Of a stretch of DNA of 33,481 nt, positions 101 through 24,659 are shown one piece after another. The DNA comes from Candidatus Peribacteria bacterium RIFCSPLOWO2_12_FULL_55_15 (GTDB lineage: Bacteria > Patescibacteriota > Gracilibacteria > Peribacterales > Peribacteraceae). The notes beneath the pieces were generated by a model that worked only from the letters and a program-made list of their open reading frames with translations, was not told the DNA's origin and made no database searches. Where the stretch lies: the NCBI GenBank assembly GCA_001789045.1, contig MFYG01000002.1, positions 1 to 33,481 of the forward strand. Reading direction: 5' to 3'. A program made the position numbers and the translations under genes. How positions within the stretch are numbered: position 1 is the stretch's first letter; each line of letters starts with the position of its first letter.

Positions 101-217
101 TGGTGGTGCCTGGGCGACAAAATTATAACCGATTTTCGGGAAAACTGGTGCGGCGGCTGAAAAATTCGGGGGTAGCAGCCGCCGTTGCCGTGACGATTTG
201 TAACTGCTCTTTTGCTG
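101..217. repeat. Left-end repeat, copy A
   Basis: It begins with TGGTGG and then ctgggcgacaaaattataac, nearly identical to copy B (21870-22052) and to the inverted copy C (about 1724-1869). An imperfect stem follows (ggtgcggcggctg with cagccgccgttgcc). The repeat then ends in a short inverted piece of the recombinase gene: read on the minus strand, 190-217 matches recombinase codons 34-42 (AAKEQLQIV). The first 70 bases equal the alternative 3' end of the recombinase gene. The SLH gene stop codon lies four bases beyond the repeat. Confidence 0.75.
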
Positions 218-220
218 CCG

Positions 221-1687
221 TCAACGTTCCGAGTATCGTTGATTTGCAGGATCGTAATGCCAATAAGAGTACCGAAGAGGAGTACGAGATTGAAGGATTC
301 GGATATCTGCATACCCATCATCATTCAAATCATTGATGAAGATAAAGTCTTTAAGCGACACTTGTCGCTTCTGAATCCTCGCGGCATTCTCTAGCATCAC
401 TGGAGAAAGACTGAATAAATCTATAGACGGAAAGAGAATTGTATCCCCCTGCTTTACTGTAAGAAAAGTAGGATTGAGGTCGTCGCCCCAGCTAATTCCT
501 CCATTTCCTTTGTCTCTGGACGGTGGATGTATATAAAAATCGAAATATCCATTATGTGTCGTATCATTTGCATATTGTCTCCATTCAAGCCAGTTGTATT
601 CAGGATCGTCGAATTGAAGCGTGACCGCGTCCGGTTCAACGTATGCGGTCCCCATCACTGCCCTATGTTTTTGGATTCCTGCCTTAAGCGGAAAAATATA
701 GCGAGAAATGTTTAAGTTCACCGTTCCAGATGAGCCAGGAATAAAACGTTCGTGCAATTCTTCAATACTGTTATCGAGGCAAATTTCCTCTAAGGCTTCA
801 TTGCCTCTTTCTCGCGGCATAAAATTGCTCATGTCGCTGGCAATTTCAAAAACCAGAACGGGGCAATCTGGCTGGGTAGTAGCTTGTTCTTTATAATTGC
901 CATGCACACCTTGTACATCCTCACTTTCTGCGCCAACAAAAACGACACTATCACTTGTAATAGATTCGACCTTCATTAATTGTAAAACATCCCCCTTACG
1001 CAAGGTAGCTCTGTCAAAGAATTGGGTTTCTCTCCGACTCAAGAGCGAAGGATCATGAAAAATCTCTAGGGACTGACTCGGACTATTATAGTGTTCACCT
1101 TCAAGTCTGTAGAGAATTTCCGCCATTTCACCCCTCGTCAACTTATCGGTCAATCCCATGATAGTTTTCGGGATGGCATCGTATGCTTCGAGACGGGCAA
1201 CAGGACCATAGTACCACTCGCCACTTGGTCCGTGATCAATGGGCGAATTGATTCCCACATGACTTGCATGTTGGACAGTGATGATTTTTGAGGCTTCTAC
1301 AAAGGATATGGTATTGACTGGCTTGAAGGTGCCATCTGGATAACCATCTATTAATCCACTGCACCGAGCGGCATTCACGAAAGATGCGAACCAACTCAAA
1401 CGTGGTACATCCGGGAAGTCGGTGAATAAATCACAATTGGTGCCGGATTGGAAAGTGCCACTTTCGACCATGATTTTCACAAATTCCGCACGATTGATCG
1501 TCTGATCTGGTCGGAACATTCCATCGGGATACCCACTCACAATTCCTTCTGACTGAACATAGAGAATAGCATCGTAGTTGGGATGCGATCGTGGAACATC
1601 CGGGAATGCAGCCTCAGTTTTGCTTGGGAAAAATAGAACGCCGAGAAGGACAGTACTGCCGATTATCTTGTAGATAGCTTCGCGCAT
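221..1687 (-). CDS. Secreted S-layer homology (SLH) domain protein
   Basis: This 488-residue protein is predicted to be exported and attached to the cell envelope. A basic N-terminus and hydrophobic stretch (residues 5-22, possible cleavage after KTEA) are followed by three SLH repeats at about 27-78, 91-138 and 155-197. The repeats show the typical pattern F.DV...HW/Y, G.I.GYPDG.F.P and .NRAEF. The C-terminal half (215-488) is not recognised, but near its end has an acidic NDLNDDGYAD stretch like calcium-binding or FG-GAP-type repeats. The start ATG has a good Shine-Dalgarno (aaggaatgt-ATG). The gene is cargo of element 1. Its stop codon lies four bases from the left-end repeat, so the native C-terminus may have been trimmed by the element boundary. 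SLH domains normally bind pyruvylated wall polymers; that this one does so is assumed. Confidence 0.85.
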   Translation of the reverse strand: MREAIYKIIGSTVLLGVLFFPSKTEAAFPDVPRSHPNYDAILYVQSEGIVSGYPDGMFRPDQTINRAEFVKIMVESGTFQSGTNCDLFTDFPDVPRLSWFASFVNAARCSGLIDGYPDGTFKPVNTISFVEASKIITVQHASHVGINSPIDHGPSGEWYYGPVARLEAYDAIPKTIMGLTDKLTRGEMAEILYRLEGEHYNSPSQSLEIFHDPSLLSRRETQFFDRATLRKGDVLQLMKVESITSDSVVFVGAESEDVQGVHGNYKEQATTQPDCPVLVFEIASDMSNFMPRERGNEALEEICLDNSIEELHERFIPGSSGTVNLNISRYIFPLKAGIQKHRAVMGTAYVEPDAVTLQFDDPEYNWLEWRQYANDTTHNGYFDFYIHPPSRDKGNGGISWGDDLNPTFLTVKQGDTILFPSIDLFSLSPVMLENAARIQKRQVSLKDFIFINDLNDDGYADIRILQSRTPLRYSYWHYDPANQRYSER

Positions 1688-1719
1688 ACATTCCTTATGT
1701 TAGGGAAATTTTGCGGATG

Positions 1720-1947
1720 GCGCTAGCCCAGTTCAAGCCGTCTTGCTTTTCCAGTTTCGCGTGCTGTTCTGACGGAAACGGTCGTGGCGTGGCGGCTGCC
1801 CCCCAATTTTCAGCTGCCGCGCCAATGTTCGCGGAAATCGGTTATGATTTTGTCGCCCAGGGACCACCAATTGCGACGTTCGGGGGTGGCGCGCAAAACG
1901 CGCCACCCTATTTTGGCTTCGTATTGCACCGCATTCTCTTTCCATTC
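1720..1947 (-). repeat. Inverted mosaic repeat, copy C (unintegrated-type att junction)
   Basis: Read on the minus strand from 1947, it encodes the end of the recombinase (NAVQYEAKIGWRVLRATPE) through the core TGGTGG (complement of 1864-1869) and on to WWSLGDKIITDFREHWRGS then stop. This is the C-terminus expected before integration. A stem-loop follows (ggcgcggcagctg with cagccgccacgcc), then ccgtttccgt. Next comes a forward fragment of recombinase codons 48-53 (cagaacagcacgcgaaac) and a fragment like codons 448-456 (aagacggcttgaactgggct). The part at 1870-1940 is an inverted copy of 3358-3426, so inverted repeats flank the intact recombinase gene. Confidence 0.75.
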
Positions 1948-1974
1948 GCCAACGGCAAAACTTTTCTTTTCTGT

Positions 1975-1980
1975 TATGAT
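1975..1980 (+). promoter_or_regulatory. -10 box TATGAT of the recombinase gene
   Basis: TATGAT is followed by six bases (tctctc) and the ATG, so the transcript would start at or next to the start codon (leaderless). No clear -35 or Shine-Dalgarno is visible. It lies just outside the inverted mosaic repeat. Confidence 0.5.
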
Positions 1981-1986
1981 TCTCTC

Positions 1987-3456
1987 ATGGACAACCGCTA
2001 TGTCATCTACGTCCGAAAATCGAGTGAGCAGGAAGAGAGACAAGCGTTATCCATCGCTGCTCAATTTCGTGAACTCGAAGAGTACGCAGCAAAAGAGCAG
2101 TTACAAATCGTCGCCTCCTTCGAGGAGGCCAGAACAGCACGCGAAACCGGACGAACCGTATTCGGAGAAATGTTGGGATTGATTGTGAATGGTGAAGCAG
2201 ATGGGATTTTGTCTTGGCATCCAGATCGCCTTGCTCGTAATGCCGTGGACGGCGGCCAGATTATCCATCTTCTCGACTGCGGAAAACTGAAAGACCTACG
2301 CTTCCCGACCATGACCTTCGACAATAGTCCGAATGGGAAATTCATGCTGCAAATCGCTTTTGGGCAGTCGAAATACTACACAGATGCTTTGAGTGAGAAT
2401 GTGAAGCGGGGTATCCGACAGAAGCTCAAACGAGGCGAATGGTCATGGAAAGCGCCGACGGGCTATCTGAATAATCCTCATACGAGGAACATCGACATTG
2501 ATTCAGAGAAAGCGCCTATCATTCGAGAAGCGTTCAGGCTGTACGCCACCGGAGAGTACACGCTCGATGCGATCAAGGACTTTCTCGTAGGGAAGGATTT
2601 CCGCAGTCGATTGAACAACATCATGGGCAAGGCCTCCGTCCAGACGATGCTGAAAAATCCCATTCACTGCGGACTCATGCAGGTGAACGGTGAACTGCAT
2701 GAAGGTTCGTTCAAGCCACTCATCAGCAAAGAGCTGTTCGACACGTGCCAACTGGTTATGAAGAATCGAGGTAAAATGAAGCACAGGAGAAACCAAGATT
2801 TTCATTTCGTTGGCTGGCTCAAGTGTGCGGAGTGTGATTGCTCCATCACTTGCCAGAGGCAGAAAGGGCATCACTATTACCATTGCACAAAGAAGAAAGG
2901 TCCCTGCACAAGCAAGCACTACCTTCGTGAGGAAAAGATACTTGAGCAAGCCAGAAAGATTGTCGAACAGCTTTCCATGCCCGATGAATGGGCGGACAGC
3001 ATGCTGCGGGAACTCGACAAGCAAGAAGTCCAGAGCAAGTCAGACCATCGGGCAGCCGTTCAGCACGTGAAGAATGAGAAGCGAGAATTGGAGAAGAAGC
3101 TGGAAGACCTCCTCGACCTTCGACTCGATGGCACGATTACCAATGACGAATACATTGTGAAGAAGAACAAGCTCGTATCTGCGAAGGTCGATCTTGACCA
3201 GAAAATCGCCCGAGCTGAACGGAACCATTGTGAGTGGCTAGAACCGTGTCGGCAGATGATTAGGCGCAGCAAGGAAGCCAAAAGTCTGCTTCACACCAAA
3301 GACTTCAAAGAAATCCCAACATTTCTCAAGCAAGCCGGCTCGAACTGGGCTTTGAAAGAGGATGCGGTGCAATACGAAGCCAAAATAGGGTGGCGCGTTT
3401 TGCGCGCCACCCCCGAACGTCGCAATTGGTGGGCAATACTGGATTTGAACCAGTGA
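1987..3456 (+). CDS. Large serine recombinase (site-specific integrase)
   Basis: This 489-residue protein cuts and rejoins DNA at attachment sites through a serine-DNA intermediate. The resolvase domain (about 4-145) has the YVRKSS motif with Ser12 as the likely nucleophile and DRLAR at 80-84. The recombinase domain spans about 150-275. A zinc ribbon uses Cys280, Cys283, Cys300 and Cys307, and a coiled coil covers about 358-410. The start at 1987 is chosen because the resolvase fold begins there; the open frame upstream (from 1711) runs over the mosaic repeat. The last residues (AILDLNQ) are encoded by the antisense strand of tRNA-Val, because the gene crosses the att core at 3427-3432. The pre-integration C-terminus, seen in copy C, would be SLGDKIITDFREHWRGS. 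All key catalytic and zinc residues are present, so it may be active. Confidence 0.93.
   Translation: MDNRYVIYVRKSSEQEERQALSIAAQFRELEEYAAKEQLQIVASFEEARTARETGRTVFGEMLGLIVNGEADGILSWHPDRLARNAVDGGQIIHLLDCGKLKDLRFPTMTFDNSPNGKFMLQIAFGQSKYYTDALSENVKRGIRQKLKRGEWSWKAPTGYLNNPHTRNIDIDSEKAPIIREAFRLYATGEYTLDAIKDFLVGKDFRSRLNNIMGKASVQTMLKNPIHCGLMQVNGELHEGSFKPLISKELFDTCQLVMKNRGKMKHRRNQDFHFVGWLKCAECDCSITCQRQKGHHYYHCTKKKGPCTSKHYLREEKILEQARKIVEQLSMPDEWADSMLRELDKQEVQSKSDHRAAVQHVKNEKRELEKKLEDLLDLRLDGTITNDEYIVKKNKLVSAKVDLDQKIARAERNHCEWLEPCRQMIRRSKEAKSLLHTKDFKEIPTFLKQAGSNWALKEDAVQYEAKIGWRVLRATPERRNWWAILDLNQ
2113..2129 (+). repeat. Small hairpin at the breakpoint of the repeat copies
   Basis: gcctcc-ttcga-ggaggc forms a perfect six-pair hairpin inside recombinase codons 43-48. 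Copies A and B lose homology to the gene directly before it, and copy C regains homology directly after it. The hairpin is therefore exactly what is replaced in the rearranged copies. Confidence 0.5.
3291..3432 (+). repeat. Right-end repeat of element 1 (attL-like)
   Basis: This 3' end of the recombinase gene is almost identical to 24451-24588, which abuts tRNA-Ala. It holds a perfect ten-pair palindrome (gggtggcgcg ttttg cgcgccaccc, 3389-3413) and ends in TTGGTGG, which merges with the CCA end of tRNA-Val. The palindrome 14-20 bases from the core is a good candidate for a recombinase-binding arm. Confidence 0.7.
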
Positions 3457-3502
3457 CCTTTCGGATGTGAACCGAACGCTCTAACCGCTGAGCTAATTGC
3501 CC
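3427..3502 (-). tRNA. tRNA-Val (CAC)
   Basis: Full cloverleaf of 76 bases. Acceptor GGGCAAT pairs with ATTGCCC, D stem GCTC/GAGC, anticodon stem TTCGG/CCGAA with loop TTCACAT (anticodon CAC, codon GTG), and T stem ACTGG/CCAGT with TTCAAAT. The discriminator is A and CCA is encoded. The last 30 bases are also the antisense of the recombinase 3' end, so the element restores the tRNA end on integration. It lies 43 bases downstream of dcd on the same strand. Confidence 0.95.
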
Positions 3503-21869: not shown

Positions 21870-22052
21870 TGGTGGTGTCTGGGCGACAAAATTATAACCG
21901 ATTTCCGCGAACATTGGCGCGGCGGCTGATTTTGCTTCGCACCCCCCACAGCCGCCGCGCCGCCGAAACGCTGCTGCCGTTTCCGTGACGATTTGTAACT
22001 GCTCTTTTGCTGCGTACTCTTCGAGTTCACGAAGTTGCGCGGCGATAGACAT
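21870..22052. repeat. Left-end repeat, copy B
   Basis: It begins with TGGTGG and continues as in copies A and C. A perfect thirteen-pair stem follows (ggcgcggcggctg/cagccgccgcgcc with a 20-base loop), then ccgtttccgt. The rest, read on the minus strand from 22052, matches recombinase codons 21-42 (SIAAQLRELEEYAAKEQLQIV). This is the longest of the inverted 5' fragments. The first 70 bases encode the alternative recombinase C-terminus. Confidence 0.78.
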
Positions 22053-22186
22053 TCTTTGTTCTTATTGCGGCGAGGGAATATCGCGGCAGTTCGTGAGGCA
22101 GCTCAATGTAAGCAGGATCTCACACCCCACCCAGAACCGCCGAGAAACCCTTTTCAGGCATCGAAGAATCTGCCCCCTTACGTCGC

Positions 22187-22792
22187 TCAACAGCCGAACT
22201 CCCCTTCGATGCAGGGGGAGATGGTATCGGAGAGTTTCGGCGAACCTGGCTCAGGCCCCTTGGCGATGTACTCCTCCGCTTTCGTTGCGCTCCACTCGTG
22301 CTCGTGGTTCCAGAGCGTCCAGAAGTGCCGCCACTCGTTCCATCCGATGCCCAGGTGCTTCACGTACACGCCGTGCTCCGCGAGCATCTTGCCGATCTTC
22401 CTCCCCGTCATGCAGGGCATGGAGTAGCAGTAGACGATCACGTCCTTCTCCTTCGGCAACGCGCGGAATGCGCCGACGATGCGATCCACATCGCCGTAGG
22501 CAGAGGTATCGGGATCGGCGTAGGCGGGGATGCTCACTGCGCCGACGATGTGCTCTTTGTCGTATTCCTGCCGGCTGCGGAGATCGACGAGGAGGTAATC
22601 CGAACTGCCTCTGTCCATTTTTCCCCGTATGCTGTGCGGACTCACATGCACGGCGTTCTCGATGTTGTAAAAATCCGCGATGAGGGAAGAGGGGTCATGG
22701 GAGCGCCAGCGCAGGACGCCGAGTGCGGCGGCGGTTCCGCCCAATGTTCCGAGGAGGAGGGAGAGGAGGAGAAAGGAGAAGGACTTTTTCAT
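22187..22792 (-). CDS. Membrane-anchored rhodanese-domain protein
   Basis: A 201-residue protein with an N-terminal membrane anchor (about 5-28) and a rhodanese domain on the outer side. Domain marks are LLVDLRSRQEYDKEHIVGAVSIP and VIVYCYSMPCMTGRKIGKML, where Cys122 is the expected sulfur-carrying cysteine; the usual C..G.RS loop reads CYSMPCMTGRK. A second cysteine (Cys127) in the loop could form a disulfide. A Shine-Dalgarno-like GGATGG lies five bases before the ATG. It is cargo of element 2 and follows the unknown gene by nine bases on the same strand. The C-terminal 45 residues have no recognised role. Confidence 0.88.
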   Translation of the reverse strand: MKKSFSFLLLSLLLGTLGGTAAALGVLRWRSHDPSSLIADFYNIENAVHVSPHSIRGKMDRGSSDYLLVDLRSRQEYDKEHIVGAVSIPAYADPDTSAYGDVDRIVGAFRALPKEKDVIVYCYSMPCMTGRKIGKMLAEHGVYVKHLGIGWNEWRHFWTLWNHEHEWSATKAEEYIAKGPEPGSPKLSDTISPCIEGEFGC

Positions 22793-22801
22793 AATTCCAT
22801 C

Positions 22802-23401
22802 CTAAGCGTCGTCCTTCGTAAAATCAACGTCGGGTATCTTCCACGGCGGGGACGGGGCTTTGGAGGGATTCTTCCACTTCGTTCCGTAGATGTGGAATTC
22901 GCTCCGCTCGCAGAAGGCGAGCGAACCGGGCGGCGGCTCCTCCGCTTCCTCGTCGATTTCCGCATCCGGCGGAGCGAGCACCACCGTGGATTCCGCGTCG
23001 TCTTCTGCGACAATGTCCACGGAGAGGACGGAGGAGAGGTTGCGCGGCGACTCCGGCTCTTTGATGTCCTGCGGAACGCGCTCCGCCGGAATGCCATTCG
23101 CATTGAGTGTGGAAACCAGGAGGTTGCGCAGGCCGCGGTAGAGACATGCCGCGCCCATTCCCCACGGCGTCGCGCGCGACTGGAGGAAGATTGTTCCCGG
23201 GAGCTTGCGGAGCGTGACGAGGCGGATGTGCCTGCCGACCGGCATGGCGGGGAGGGTCGCGCGGAGGTGGTCCAGCGTTTTCTCGATGATGCGGCGGACC
23301 TCAGAATCAATGATCTCGACTGATTCACTGCACATCCGGATCGGCTCAACGTCGATCACGAGCGGGTCGGGAGTCTCGTTCAGCCACTGCTCAAGATCCA
23401 T
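22802..23401 (-). CDS. Hypothetical protein of element 2
   Basis: About 199 residues, family not recognised. The first 115 residues look folded (MDLEQWLNETPDPLVIDVEPIRM, then IIEKTLDHLRATLPAMPVG and MGAACLYRGLRNLLV). The C-terminal part is acidic and proline-rich. There is no signal peptide. The start ATG at 23401 is chosen because a TATACT box lies seven bases upstream, a spacing seen at other starts here. The gene reads directly into the rhodanese gene, so they probably form one transcript. The other strand also has a long open frame, but it lacks any recognisable motif. Confidence 0.65.
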   Translation of the reverse strand: MDLEQWLNETPDPLVIDVEPIRMCSESVEIIDSEVRRIIEKTLDHLRATLPAMPVGRHIRLVTLRKLPGTIFLQSRATPWGMGAACLYRGLRNLLVSTLNANGIPAERVPQDIKEPESPRNLSSVLSVDIVAEDDAESTVVLAPPDAEIDEEAEEPPPGSLAFCERSEFHIYGTKWKNPSKAPSPPWKIPDVDFTKDDA

Positions 23402-23428
23402 GGGAAGGAGTATAGCACCATGGCGAAA

Positions 23429-23490
23429 CACTCCTCTCCCTTCCAGCCTTCGCCAAGGCTACTGCCGGCAAGCAAGGGGTGAGGGCAGCT
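23429..23490. repeat. Degenerate REP-like sequence at the sigma-fragment 3' end
   Basis: ctcctctcccttccagccttcgccaaggct...ggggtgagggcagc keeps the cctctccc start and the ggggtgaggg tail of the REP-like family, with an altered middle. It marks the point where sigma-factor homology stops. Confidence 0.45.
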
Positions 23491-23899
23491 GCAGCTTTAG
23501 AGAAATTCCGCCAGGCGCGGCATGTCCGTTGGGCGTTTGGATGAGGTCGGAGACCGTCACGGCTTCGTCGCCTTTTCCTTCGAGCGGTGTGTCTATGCTC
23601 AACGTGGGACGGGATGCAGCAGCCGCCGCGGCAAGCGCCCACCGGCCCTCGCCGGAGATTTTCTCCAGGAGACTTATGGGCGGTTCTTCTCCATGGGTCG
23701 CGATGTATTCCTGTTCTGCGAAGGACGCTCTCTGCGCCTTGCCGCGGACATGCACGGGGACGCGCACGGTGGTGCCGGTGTCGGCAAGCGCGCGGGTGAA
23801 CGACTGGCGGATCAACCATGTGGCGTAGGTGCTGAATTTCCATCCGAAGCGCGGCTCGAATTTCTGCACGGCGCGCAGGAGCAGCTCTTCCAAGCAGTG
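23459..23899 (-). pseudogene. Truncated sigma-70 family factor (regions 2.3-3 only)
   Basis: The minus strand encodes [35 protein letters not shown] and [15 protein letters not shown], the classic region 2.3-2.4 of a sigma-70 factor that melts and reads the -10 box. Part of region 3 follows ([22 protein letters not shown]) up to [21 protein letters not shown]. Regions 1 and 2.1-2.2 are missing where the transposase remnant begins (about 23900), and region 4 is missing where a REP-like sequence begins (about 23430-23485). Both ends are lost, so it is best read as a pseudogene, although about 140 codons remain open. Confidence 0.8.
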
Positions 23900-24190
23900 A
23901 ACACGTTCCTGGAGGAGAGAGGTCTACTCGTGAAGAAAGGCACACTGGAAGACGCCACCGTTATTGAAACGGCGAAGAGCAGGAAGAACAAGAAGAAGAA
24001 GTCTCGTGTGCGTTCCTTCGTCGAGCACCCCTACAACATCATCAAGAACCGGTTCCACGTGATGAAGACCCGGTACATCGGACTCACGAAGAACACCGCC
24101 TACTTCCTCGGACTCTGCATGCTCTCCAACGTGTACATCGCACGCAGACATCTCCTCCCAAGGGGATGCCATGCCTTAACACCGGGAAAT
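23900..24190 (+). pseudogene. IS5-type transposase remnant with internal deletion
   Basis: The plus strand encodes [23 protein letters not shown], resembling the GL.VK.GT.VDATII stretch of IS5-family DDE transposases. After a short lysine-rich joint it jumps straight to FVEHPYNIIKNRFHVMK, RYIGLTKNTAYFLGL and SNVYIARRHLL, the C-terminal part with the last catalytic glutamate (VEHP). The N-terminus and the middle, including the second catalytic aspartate, are gone. It seems to have interrupted the sigma-factor gene and then decayed. Confidence 0.8.
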
Positions 24191-24290
24191 CCGGTCCCAC
24201 ACGTACTACCCCGCAGAAAATTGCCACCACTGGCAAGGAGAAAAAGAGCCAGGGAACCACTACAGAAGCCTAGAAGAGGGATTTTTCAGC

Positions 24291-24591
24291 GATTCCCAAT
24301 GACGAATACATCGGAAAAAAGAACAAACTCGTTTCTCAGAAGGTCGATCTTGACCAGAAAATCGCCCGTGCTGAACGGAACCACTGTGAGTGGCTAGAAC
24401 CGTGTCGGCAAATGATTTTACGCAGCAAGGAAGCCAAAAGTCTGCTTCACACAGAAAATCTCAAGGAAATCCCAACATTTCTTAAGCAAGCCGGCTTGAA
24501 CTGGGCTTTGAAAGAGAATGCGGTGCAATACGAAGCCAAAATAGGGTGGCGCGTTTTGCGCGCCAGCCCCGAAAGTCGTACTTGGTGGAGC
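24291..24591 (+). pseudogene. 3' remnant of a serine recombinase gene
   Basis: This matches codons 384 to the end of the recombinase at 1987-3456 at both DNA and protein level (NDEYIGKKNKLVSQKVDLDQ, ERNHCEWLEPCRQMI, SKEAKSLLHTENLKEIPTFLKQAG). It has the same palindrome and the same TTGGTGG end. It crosses the core into tRNA-Ala and stops at once (WWS-TGA, stop at 24592-24594). Everything upstream, including the catalytic domain and zinc ribbon, is missing. The copy differs from that of element 1 by scattered substitutions, so it is not an assembly duplicate. Confidence 0.9.
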
Positions 24592-24659
24592 TGACGAGAT
24601 TCGAACTCGTGACCCCCTGCTTGCAAAGCAGGTGCTCTAGCCAGCTGAGCTACAGCCCC
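24583..24659 (-). tRNA. tRNA-Ala (TGC)
   Basis: Full cloverleaf of 77 bases. Acceptor GGGGCTG pairs with CAGCTCC, anticodon stem CCTGC/GCAGG with loop TTTGCAA (anticodon TGC), and T loop TTCGAAT in ACGAG/CTCGT. Discriminator A and encoded CCA. The terminal CCACCA is the proposed attachment core of element 2. Confidence 0.96.

Follow-up and report, generated by a model that had tools for sequence, protein, structure and literature searches.

A serine recombinase family of Patescibacteria whose C-terminal tail appears to be exchanged for tRNA antisense sequence on integration

Introduction

Can a mobile element rewrite its own integrase by inserting at a tRNA gene? The question is raised by a large serine recombinase gene of Candidatus Peribacteria bacterium RIFCSPLOWO2_12_FULL_55_15, which ends inside a tRNA. 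The window analyzed here is the whole 33,481-nucleotide stretch 1-33,481 of contig MFYG01000002.1 (GCA_001789045.1). A sequence-only reading of this DNA had placed the attachment core within the coding sequence and proposed that each integration makes a recombinase with a different tail, possibly switching the enzyme between integrating and excising forms. That serine integrases are kept from re-acting after integration is usually attributed to a separate directionality factor, and overlaps of int and attP are known from the actinomycete elements SLP1 and pSAM2. If recombination edits the C-terminus of the enzyme, the attachment site itself could encode direction or shut-off. Possible outcomes of tail loss include separate integrating and excising forms, a disarmed enzyme, or an effect on stability only.

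The recombinase gene and its elements in the window

The gene (1987-3456, plus strand) codes for a protein of 489 residues, in which domain search and structure prediction identified Resolvase, Recombinase and Zn_ribbon_recom domains and a long coiled coil. By sequence, the nearest solved structure is YokA, and the A118 integrase was matched as well; apart from scattered unrelated helical proteins, the structure matches miss the tail. As had been read from the sequence, the frame passes through TGGTGG, ending ...TPERRNWW and then AILDLNQ, with the stop at 3456 inside tRNA-Val(CAC) (3427-3502, minus strand, by tRNA call). The last seven residues are thus encoded by the antisense of the tRNA, and TGGTGG corresponds to the encoded 3′ terminus of the tRNA, CCACCA, read on the opposite strand.

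This tRNA is the target of E1, an element of 3.3 kb (101-3432). Its left core TGGTGG (101-106, plus strand) is a direct repeat of the right core (3427-3432), which closes the recombinase 3′ end, or P arm (3354-3432, plus strand), with the crossover inferred at 3431-3432. The left core is followed by a P′ arm (107-160, plus strand) that would code for CLGDKIITDFRENWCGG and a stop once joined to the recombinase. Between the left end and the recombinase lies a cargo gene on the minus strand (221-1687), assigned by domain search to an S-layer homology domain protein.

Directly upstream of the recombinase start, the 3′ end of the gene recurs in inverted orientation (1864-1942, minus strand), ending in a core at 1864-1869 and continuing into a P′ arm (1810-1863, minus strand) that codes for the tail SLGDKIITDFREHWRGS and a stop. 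The two P arms, 1864-1942 and 3354-3432, match over 79 nt at 99%, and the P′ arm of E1's left end shares 85% identity with that of the inverted copy over 40 nt. This inverted copy, termed copy C, had been taken for a recombinase frame that reads through the core into a tail of its own. The reading holds for the letters, since minus strand 1810-1942 gives ...RNWWSLGDKIITDFREHWRGS and a stop, but the copy comprises no more than the final 26 codons of the gene and is not a third recombinase. Copy C is instead an intact, attP-like P-core-P′ site.

A second, decayed element, E2 (21870-24588), was recognized by repeat comparison. It begins with a left core and P′ arm (21870-21929, plus strand; P′ at 21876-21929) and ends in a recombinase 3′ remnant (24290-24588, plus strand; core 24583-24588) at tRNA-Ala(TGC) (24583-24659, minus strand, by tRNA call). 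The frame there reads TGG TGG AGC TGA, that is, WWS and a stop, in agreement with the sequence-only reading. The P′ copies at 107-160 and 21876-21929 are the left ends of integrated E1 and E2. The window has no excess of the hexamer itself (21 occurrences against 15.9 expected, a count reached by 11 of 100 shuffles); what goes beyond chance is the repeats ending on the core, namely the inverted pair above and a 300-nt repeat at 90% between 3134-3433 and 24290-24589.

Two further junctions of the same subfamily occur in this genome, at tRNA-Ile(GAT) on contig C13 and tRNA-Ala(CGC) on contig C11, and their tails diverge from the core onward. Comparison of the same-genome copies thus places the start of C-terminal variation exactly at the core. 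An isolated left-end P′ arm lies at G000 contig C21:1757-1808, with no tRNA in the 3 kb examined.

Relatives and generality

Relatives were taken as the best 80 from a scan of genome contigs covering 84,980 species, and were mostly entered as Patescibacteria in their record titles. Together with five of six viral loci (L164 was left out), they made up 85 loci (L079-L163). With the window and ten regions of relatives included, 71 of 87 entries were kept. Those dropped were the duplicates L079, L082 and L092 (of L059, L060 and L066), frames shorter than 1200 nt, entries with no anchor motif and entries with less than 250 nt upstream.

Among the 85 loci listed, ARAGORN called a tRNA at the 3′ end of the recombinase gene in 53 (counted by hand), the targets being Ser, Leu, Gln, Arg, Lys, Ala, Phe, Asn, Glu, His, Trp, Pro, Met and Val. 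Of the 71 elements, 62 have the 3′ end of their own gene repeated in inverted orientation. The core could be placed in 52 of the 62, the other ten having no TGG near the block end, and in all 52 the core begins, in the recombinase frame, with a Trp codon. Past the core, the tRNA-joined frame ends after 1-88 residues (40 copies with a complete end). Both the in-frame core and the different tail at each integration, as originally proposed, therefore extend well beyond the window. The original observation is confirmed and general in the family, an integration-coupled C-terminal change, here in a serine integrase.

The elements appear to be small integrative elements of Patescibacteria, carrying a large serine recombinase and usually one cargo gene. 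A plasmid or phage home was rejected, as no close relative was found in PLSDB or INPHARED, where the highest identities among the places listed were 33% and 29%, respectively. No description of the recombinase family was found in the literature searched, which omits most subscription journals and preprints. Cargo ORFs vary widely and include S-layer, pilin-like, helix-turn-helix and methyltransferase-like proteins, assigned by eye except for the S-layer type. The contigs of L066, L098 and L154 stop a few nucleotides from the core, which would be expected of a sample containing several junction contexts side by side.

Attachment-site geometry

All 31 arms in which a tRNA was called have a TTCGAAC-like motif, the antisense of the tRNA T-loop, beginning 11 nt past the core. 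In each of the 48 P′ arms scoring at least 5/7, the best position of this motif, sole or shared, is 16 nt past the core; four other P′ arms scored below 5/7, and the window's own P′ motif is weak (4/7). For A118-type integrases, the zinc-ribbon motif of attP lies 5 bp more distal than that of attB (PMC3783163), and the difference between +16 and +11 corresponds to this attP/attB shift of serine integrases. From the motif geometry, we infer that the zinc ribbon reads the tRNA T-loop. The family appears to be able to enter many tRNA genes.

In the left flanks of 21 elements, the core is matched at positions 5 and 6 in all 21, at positions 4 and 3 in 19, at position 2 in seven and at position 1 in 15. 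The crossover was placed at positions 5-6 because the flanks always match there, which gives a two-base crossover common to both ends of the integrated elements. Outside the crossover, the flanks often have no encoded CCA, indicating that the element supplies TGG, i.e., the CCA of the tRNA.

The tail as DNA and as protein

Joined to P′, the recombinase frame would end after 11-45 residues (49 arms), with tail patterns such as CAFEKIRTDF, QLLNKIRTDL, SILELVRTHF and CLLNKIRTFF. Among P′ arms, 1389 of 2894 single-base codon changes are synonymous in the recombinase frame (a share of about 0.48); the other frames give 542 of 2374 and 173 of 2249 (about 0.22 and 0.09). Within the first ten codons of 44 distinct P′ arms, no stop occurs in the recombinase frame, as opposed to 26 and 11 in the others, and permuted columns give 9.5 stop-bearing arms on average. 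L154 was excluded from this frame test. The selection seen on P′ is an average over many elements.

The tRNA arms of 42 elements show no such frame-specific signal, with synonymous shares of 0.29, 0.27 and 0.34 and stops in 15, 9 and 6, whereas the P′ arms of the same 42 elements do show it. Pairs of arms are not independent, but a set of 27 representatives below 80% identity gives the same outcome. The single frame-0 stop among the 42 P′ arms was ascribed to L149, whose contig begins 2 nt into P′. Since the constraint on P′ is frame-specific and absent from the tRNA arms, the unintegrated enzyme would have a selected tail. A minus-strand mini-gene was considered for the inverted copy and rejected: an in-frame ATG lies upstream in just 13 of 49, and the inverted copy is not itself a gene. 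Protein-level selection on P′ must thus act when P′ is joined to the full recombinase, which is the unintegrated form.

A full gene with a P-P′ junction is present in one relative, L116, where AlphaFold2 predicts the tail as a helix (residues 476-489, pLDDT 83-84 per ten-residue block); the tRNA-coded end of the window's recombinase has a pLDDT below 50. The region (L116, 2564-4380) is rearranged, with the tRNA 5′ of the recombinase, a full recombinase with a P′ tail, and sense instead of antisense tracts. The junction was also seen directly in a recombinase remnant at G000:C1:10372-10485. The free P-P′ junction as such is deduced from the geometry, with this remnant and the rearranged L116 as its direct instances.

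A profile of P plus tail was run against 379 phylum and 288 class genomes, two overlapping sets. Neither set contained a recombinase-length frame (at least 400 residues) with P plus tail. Profile matches in frames of that length stop about the core (profile position 30 or below) in 10 of 11 and 25 of 26 cases, the remaining frame, the same ORF in both scans, having no recombinase match. Matches spanning both P and tail sit in short frames.

Tandem accretion was considered behind five P′-like 3′ ends (L090, L099, L106, L145 and L151); no notable second recombinase lies downstream, leaving it unproven for these, and it is supported for one element by the junction G000:C1:10372. Two of the five, L099 and L106, come from different genomes and have a common non-tRNA sequence past the core, TCGAACCTATTTTCAAAACAAATGATG, perhaps the P′ arm of another element.

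Integration therefore takes away a selected part of the integrase, and what replaces it shows no visible selection. As the tRNA-coded tails carry no selection signal, they are probably not a second designed form of the enzyme. The proposal of a tail switch is partly supported: it gains a substrate from these data, the lost tail being a conserved protein feature.

Consequences of tail loss

Loss of the tail may disarm or redirect the enzyme. In the sequence of events that we propose, the gene of the unintegrated form would run P-core-P′ and end in the conserved tail, predicted to be helical. Integration at a tRNA 3′ end would recombine the core, leaving the gene with P and adding tRNA antisense. 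The tail would be replaced by an arbitrary peptide, and the arm coding for it would stay at the far end of the element. The swap is backed by the in-frame core, the exchange exactly at the core, the attP/attB motif geometry and the selection on the lost tail. As to its effect, we consider it probable that the tail is needed for attP × attB recombination, such that integration at a tRNA 3′ end disarms the element's own enzyme. An active enzyme should be dangerous in a chromosome that keeps an intact inverted attP (copy C) among many tRNA targets, and disarming, which would protect that chromosome, is for this reason thought the most likely outcome. Against it, no excised circle was seen, and the last 21 residues of the phiC31 integrase are reported as non-essential (PMC5737554), so tails can be dispensable.

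Alternatively, the tailed enzyme might integrate and the tail-swapped enzyme excise (attL × attR) with no separate directionality factor. The in-frame core, the selection on P′ and its absence from tRNA arms would be equally expected here, and in phiC31 a C-terminally fused directionality factor allows attL × attR (PMC5737554). By eye, no recurrent extra gene is evident among the cargo ORFs listed. The tRNA tails of 1-88 residues, however, are unselected, and excision would have to come from the absence of the tail; no excision product was seen. We regard this switch as unlikely.

The tail might instead govern the stability or expression of the free-form enzyme, in the manner of a degradation tag, and have no part in recombination chemistry. 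Its position at the extreme C-terminus would suit such a role, and integration-dependent control by a C-terminal tag exists for the repressor of mycobacteriophage BPs (PMC4557955). The tail is predicted as an ordered helix, which speaks against a tag, and we consider this option quite unlikely.

The inverted P arms, present in 62 of 71 elements and 99% identical over 79 nt in the window, would also allow the module between them to flip, switching the gene between the P′ tail and a tRNA tail. L116 indeed shows a flipped order (tRNA-core-P-recombinase-P-core-P′-R2-Q-L). Yet a tRNA lies on the 5′ side in only two of 85 loci, L116 and L142 (partial), and the two P arms and two cores of L116 differ, which excludes a simple flip there. 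Moreover, an attP × attR pairing is not known as a usual serine-integrase reaction. We consider flipping very improbable. Least probable of all is an ordinary overlap, with attP at the gene's 3′ end by coincidence and the tail conserved purely as a DNA site. Although the P′ motif (the IRT codons) is itself the DNA recognition motif, frame-specific constraint extends outside and around it and is absent from the tRNA arms of the same elements.

Comparison with known systems

With large serine integrases (A118/LI, SPbeta YokA, phiC31, Bxb1), the family shares domain order, fold, the attP/attB motif shifted by 5 bp and the two-base crossover. It differs from them in the attP core inside the recombinase coding sequence, the many tRNA 3′ ends targeted and the inverted attP upstream. 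The archaeal suicidal integrases of SSV1, pTN3 and pT26-2 likewise carry att inside the integrase gene, which is altered on integration at a tRNA; they are tyrosine recombinases with a split gene (PMC8371274), whereas here a bacterial serine recombinase would lose its tail only. The review calls integrase self-disruption exclusive to archaea (PMC8371274). The elements described here would be a bacterial serine counterpart of these archaeal integrases.

In mycobacteriophage BPs, attP also lies inside a coding gene, and integration removes a C-terminal piece and changes activity. That gene is a repressor and the lost piece a degradation tag (PMC4557955), while here the gene is a recombinase. C-terminal additions change the reaction direction in engineered fusions of integrases with directionality factors as well; those constructs (PMC5737554) are artificial and the extra part is added, whereas the natural tail of about 11-45 residues is removed.

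Antisense tracts

The integrated elements also carry short stretches antisense to their own recombinase gene. In E1, all on the minus strand, these are R1 (192-218, antisense of 2086-2112, 27 nt, 100%), Q (1725-1748, antisense of 3328-3351, 92%) and R2 (1750-1771, 95%), the last matching the codons right after a 17-nt hairpin that lies within the gene between R1 and R2 (2113-2129, plus strand, identified by fold against shuffles). E2 has an R1 tract at 21987-22049 (minus strand, antisense of 2050-2112, 94%). Counting P blocks, the upstream regions of the 71 elements match their own gene 182 times in antisense and 10 times in sense; antisense matches amount to 2.6 per element versus 0.7 for mismatched pairs (n = 71).

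The tracts R1, R2, Q and L measure 13-37 nt and P 63-148 nt. Their gene positions are fixed (R2 at 116-136, Q at 1312-1340, P from 1340 to the core), with a different set in the second clade. R1 ends at gene nt 95-98 and occupies a more upstream position at the left end (28 of 71, counted by hand). An exact inverted match to L, the recombinase leader, occurs at the far side in 31 of 35, though not in the window. The tracts track the gene of their own element: of 487 sites inside Q or R2 that differ between two genes, 419 have both tracts agreeing with their respective gene, counted over pairs that are not independent. Cargo starts mostly within about 150 nt of the Q tract (28 of 35 elements).

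Twenty-eight elements have all of P, Q, R2 and L. Among them, at most 3 nt separate Q from P in 26, at most 5 nt the inverted copies of Q and R2 in 28, at most 4 nt those of L and Q in 26, and at most 6 nt inverted P from L in 22; of the six other gaps between inverted P and L, five have a fold no higher than the 5th percentile of shuffles. The same holds for the 17-nt stretch separating R1 from R2 in 27 of 28 relatives. Three blocks that abut pairwise at three places look like the arms of a three-way junction. Overall, the tracts resemble arms of three- and four-way junctions that have conserved hairpins where the arms meet. Tentatively, the element may have evolved a single-stranded DNA fold that holds a double-stranded attP and is used on cell entry or single-strand processing, and only that unintegrated form would make the tailed, active enzyme. 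Formation of all pairs at once would give a pseudoknotted fold, which counts against this proposal. A remnant second recombinase gene broken up by this cassette would also give the adjacencies, but fails to give the sequence tracking.

Other candidates were set aside. RNA-RNA pairing with the recombinase mRNA is not supported, there being no G-U excess (47 GU against 47 AC in the P block; 10 against 13 in Q plus R2), and a protein-coding upstream region was rejected, as no consistent plus-strand ORF runs through the U region. In the stretches searched with Rfam, tRNAs alone reach the gathering score. The architecture has no described counterpart in the literature searched, which omits most subscription journals and preprints. 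The stem sequence of the R1-R2 hairpin changes between relatives, within coding sequence.
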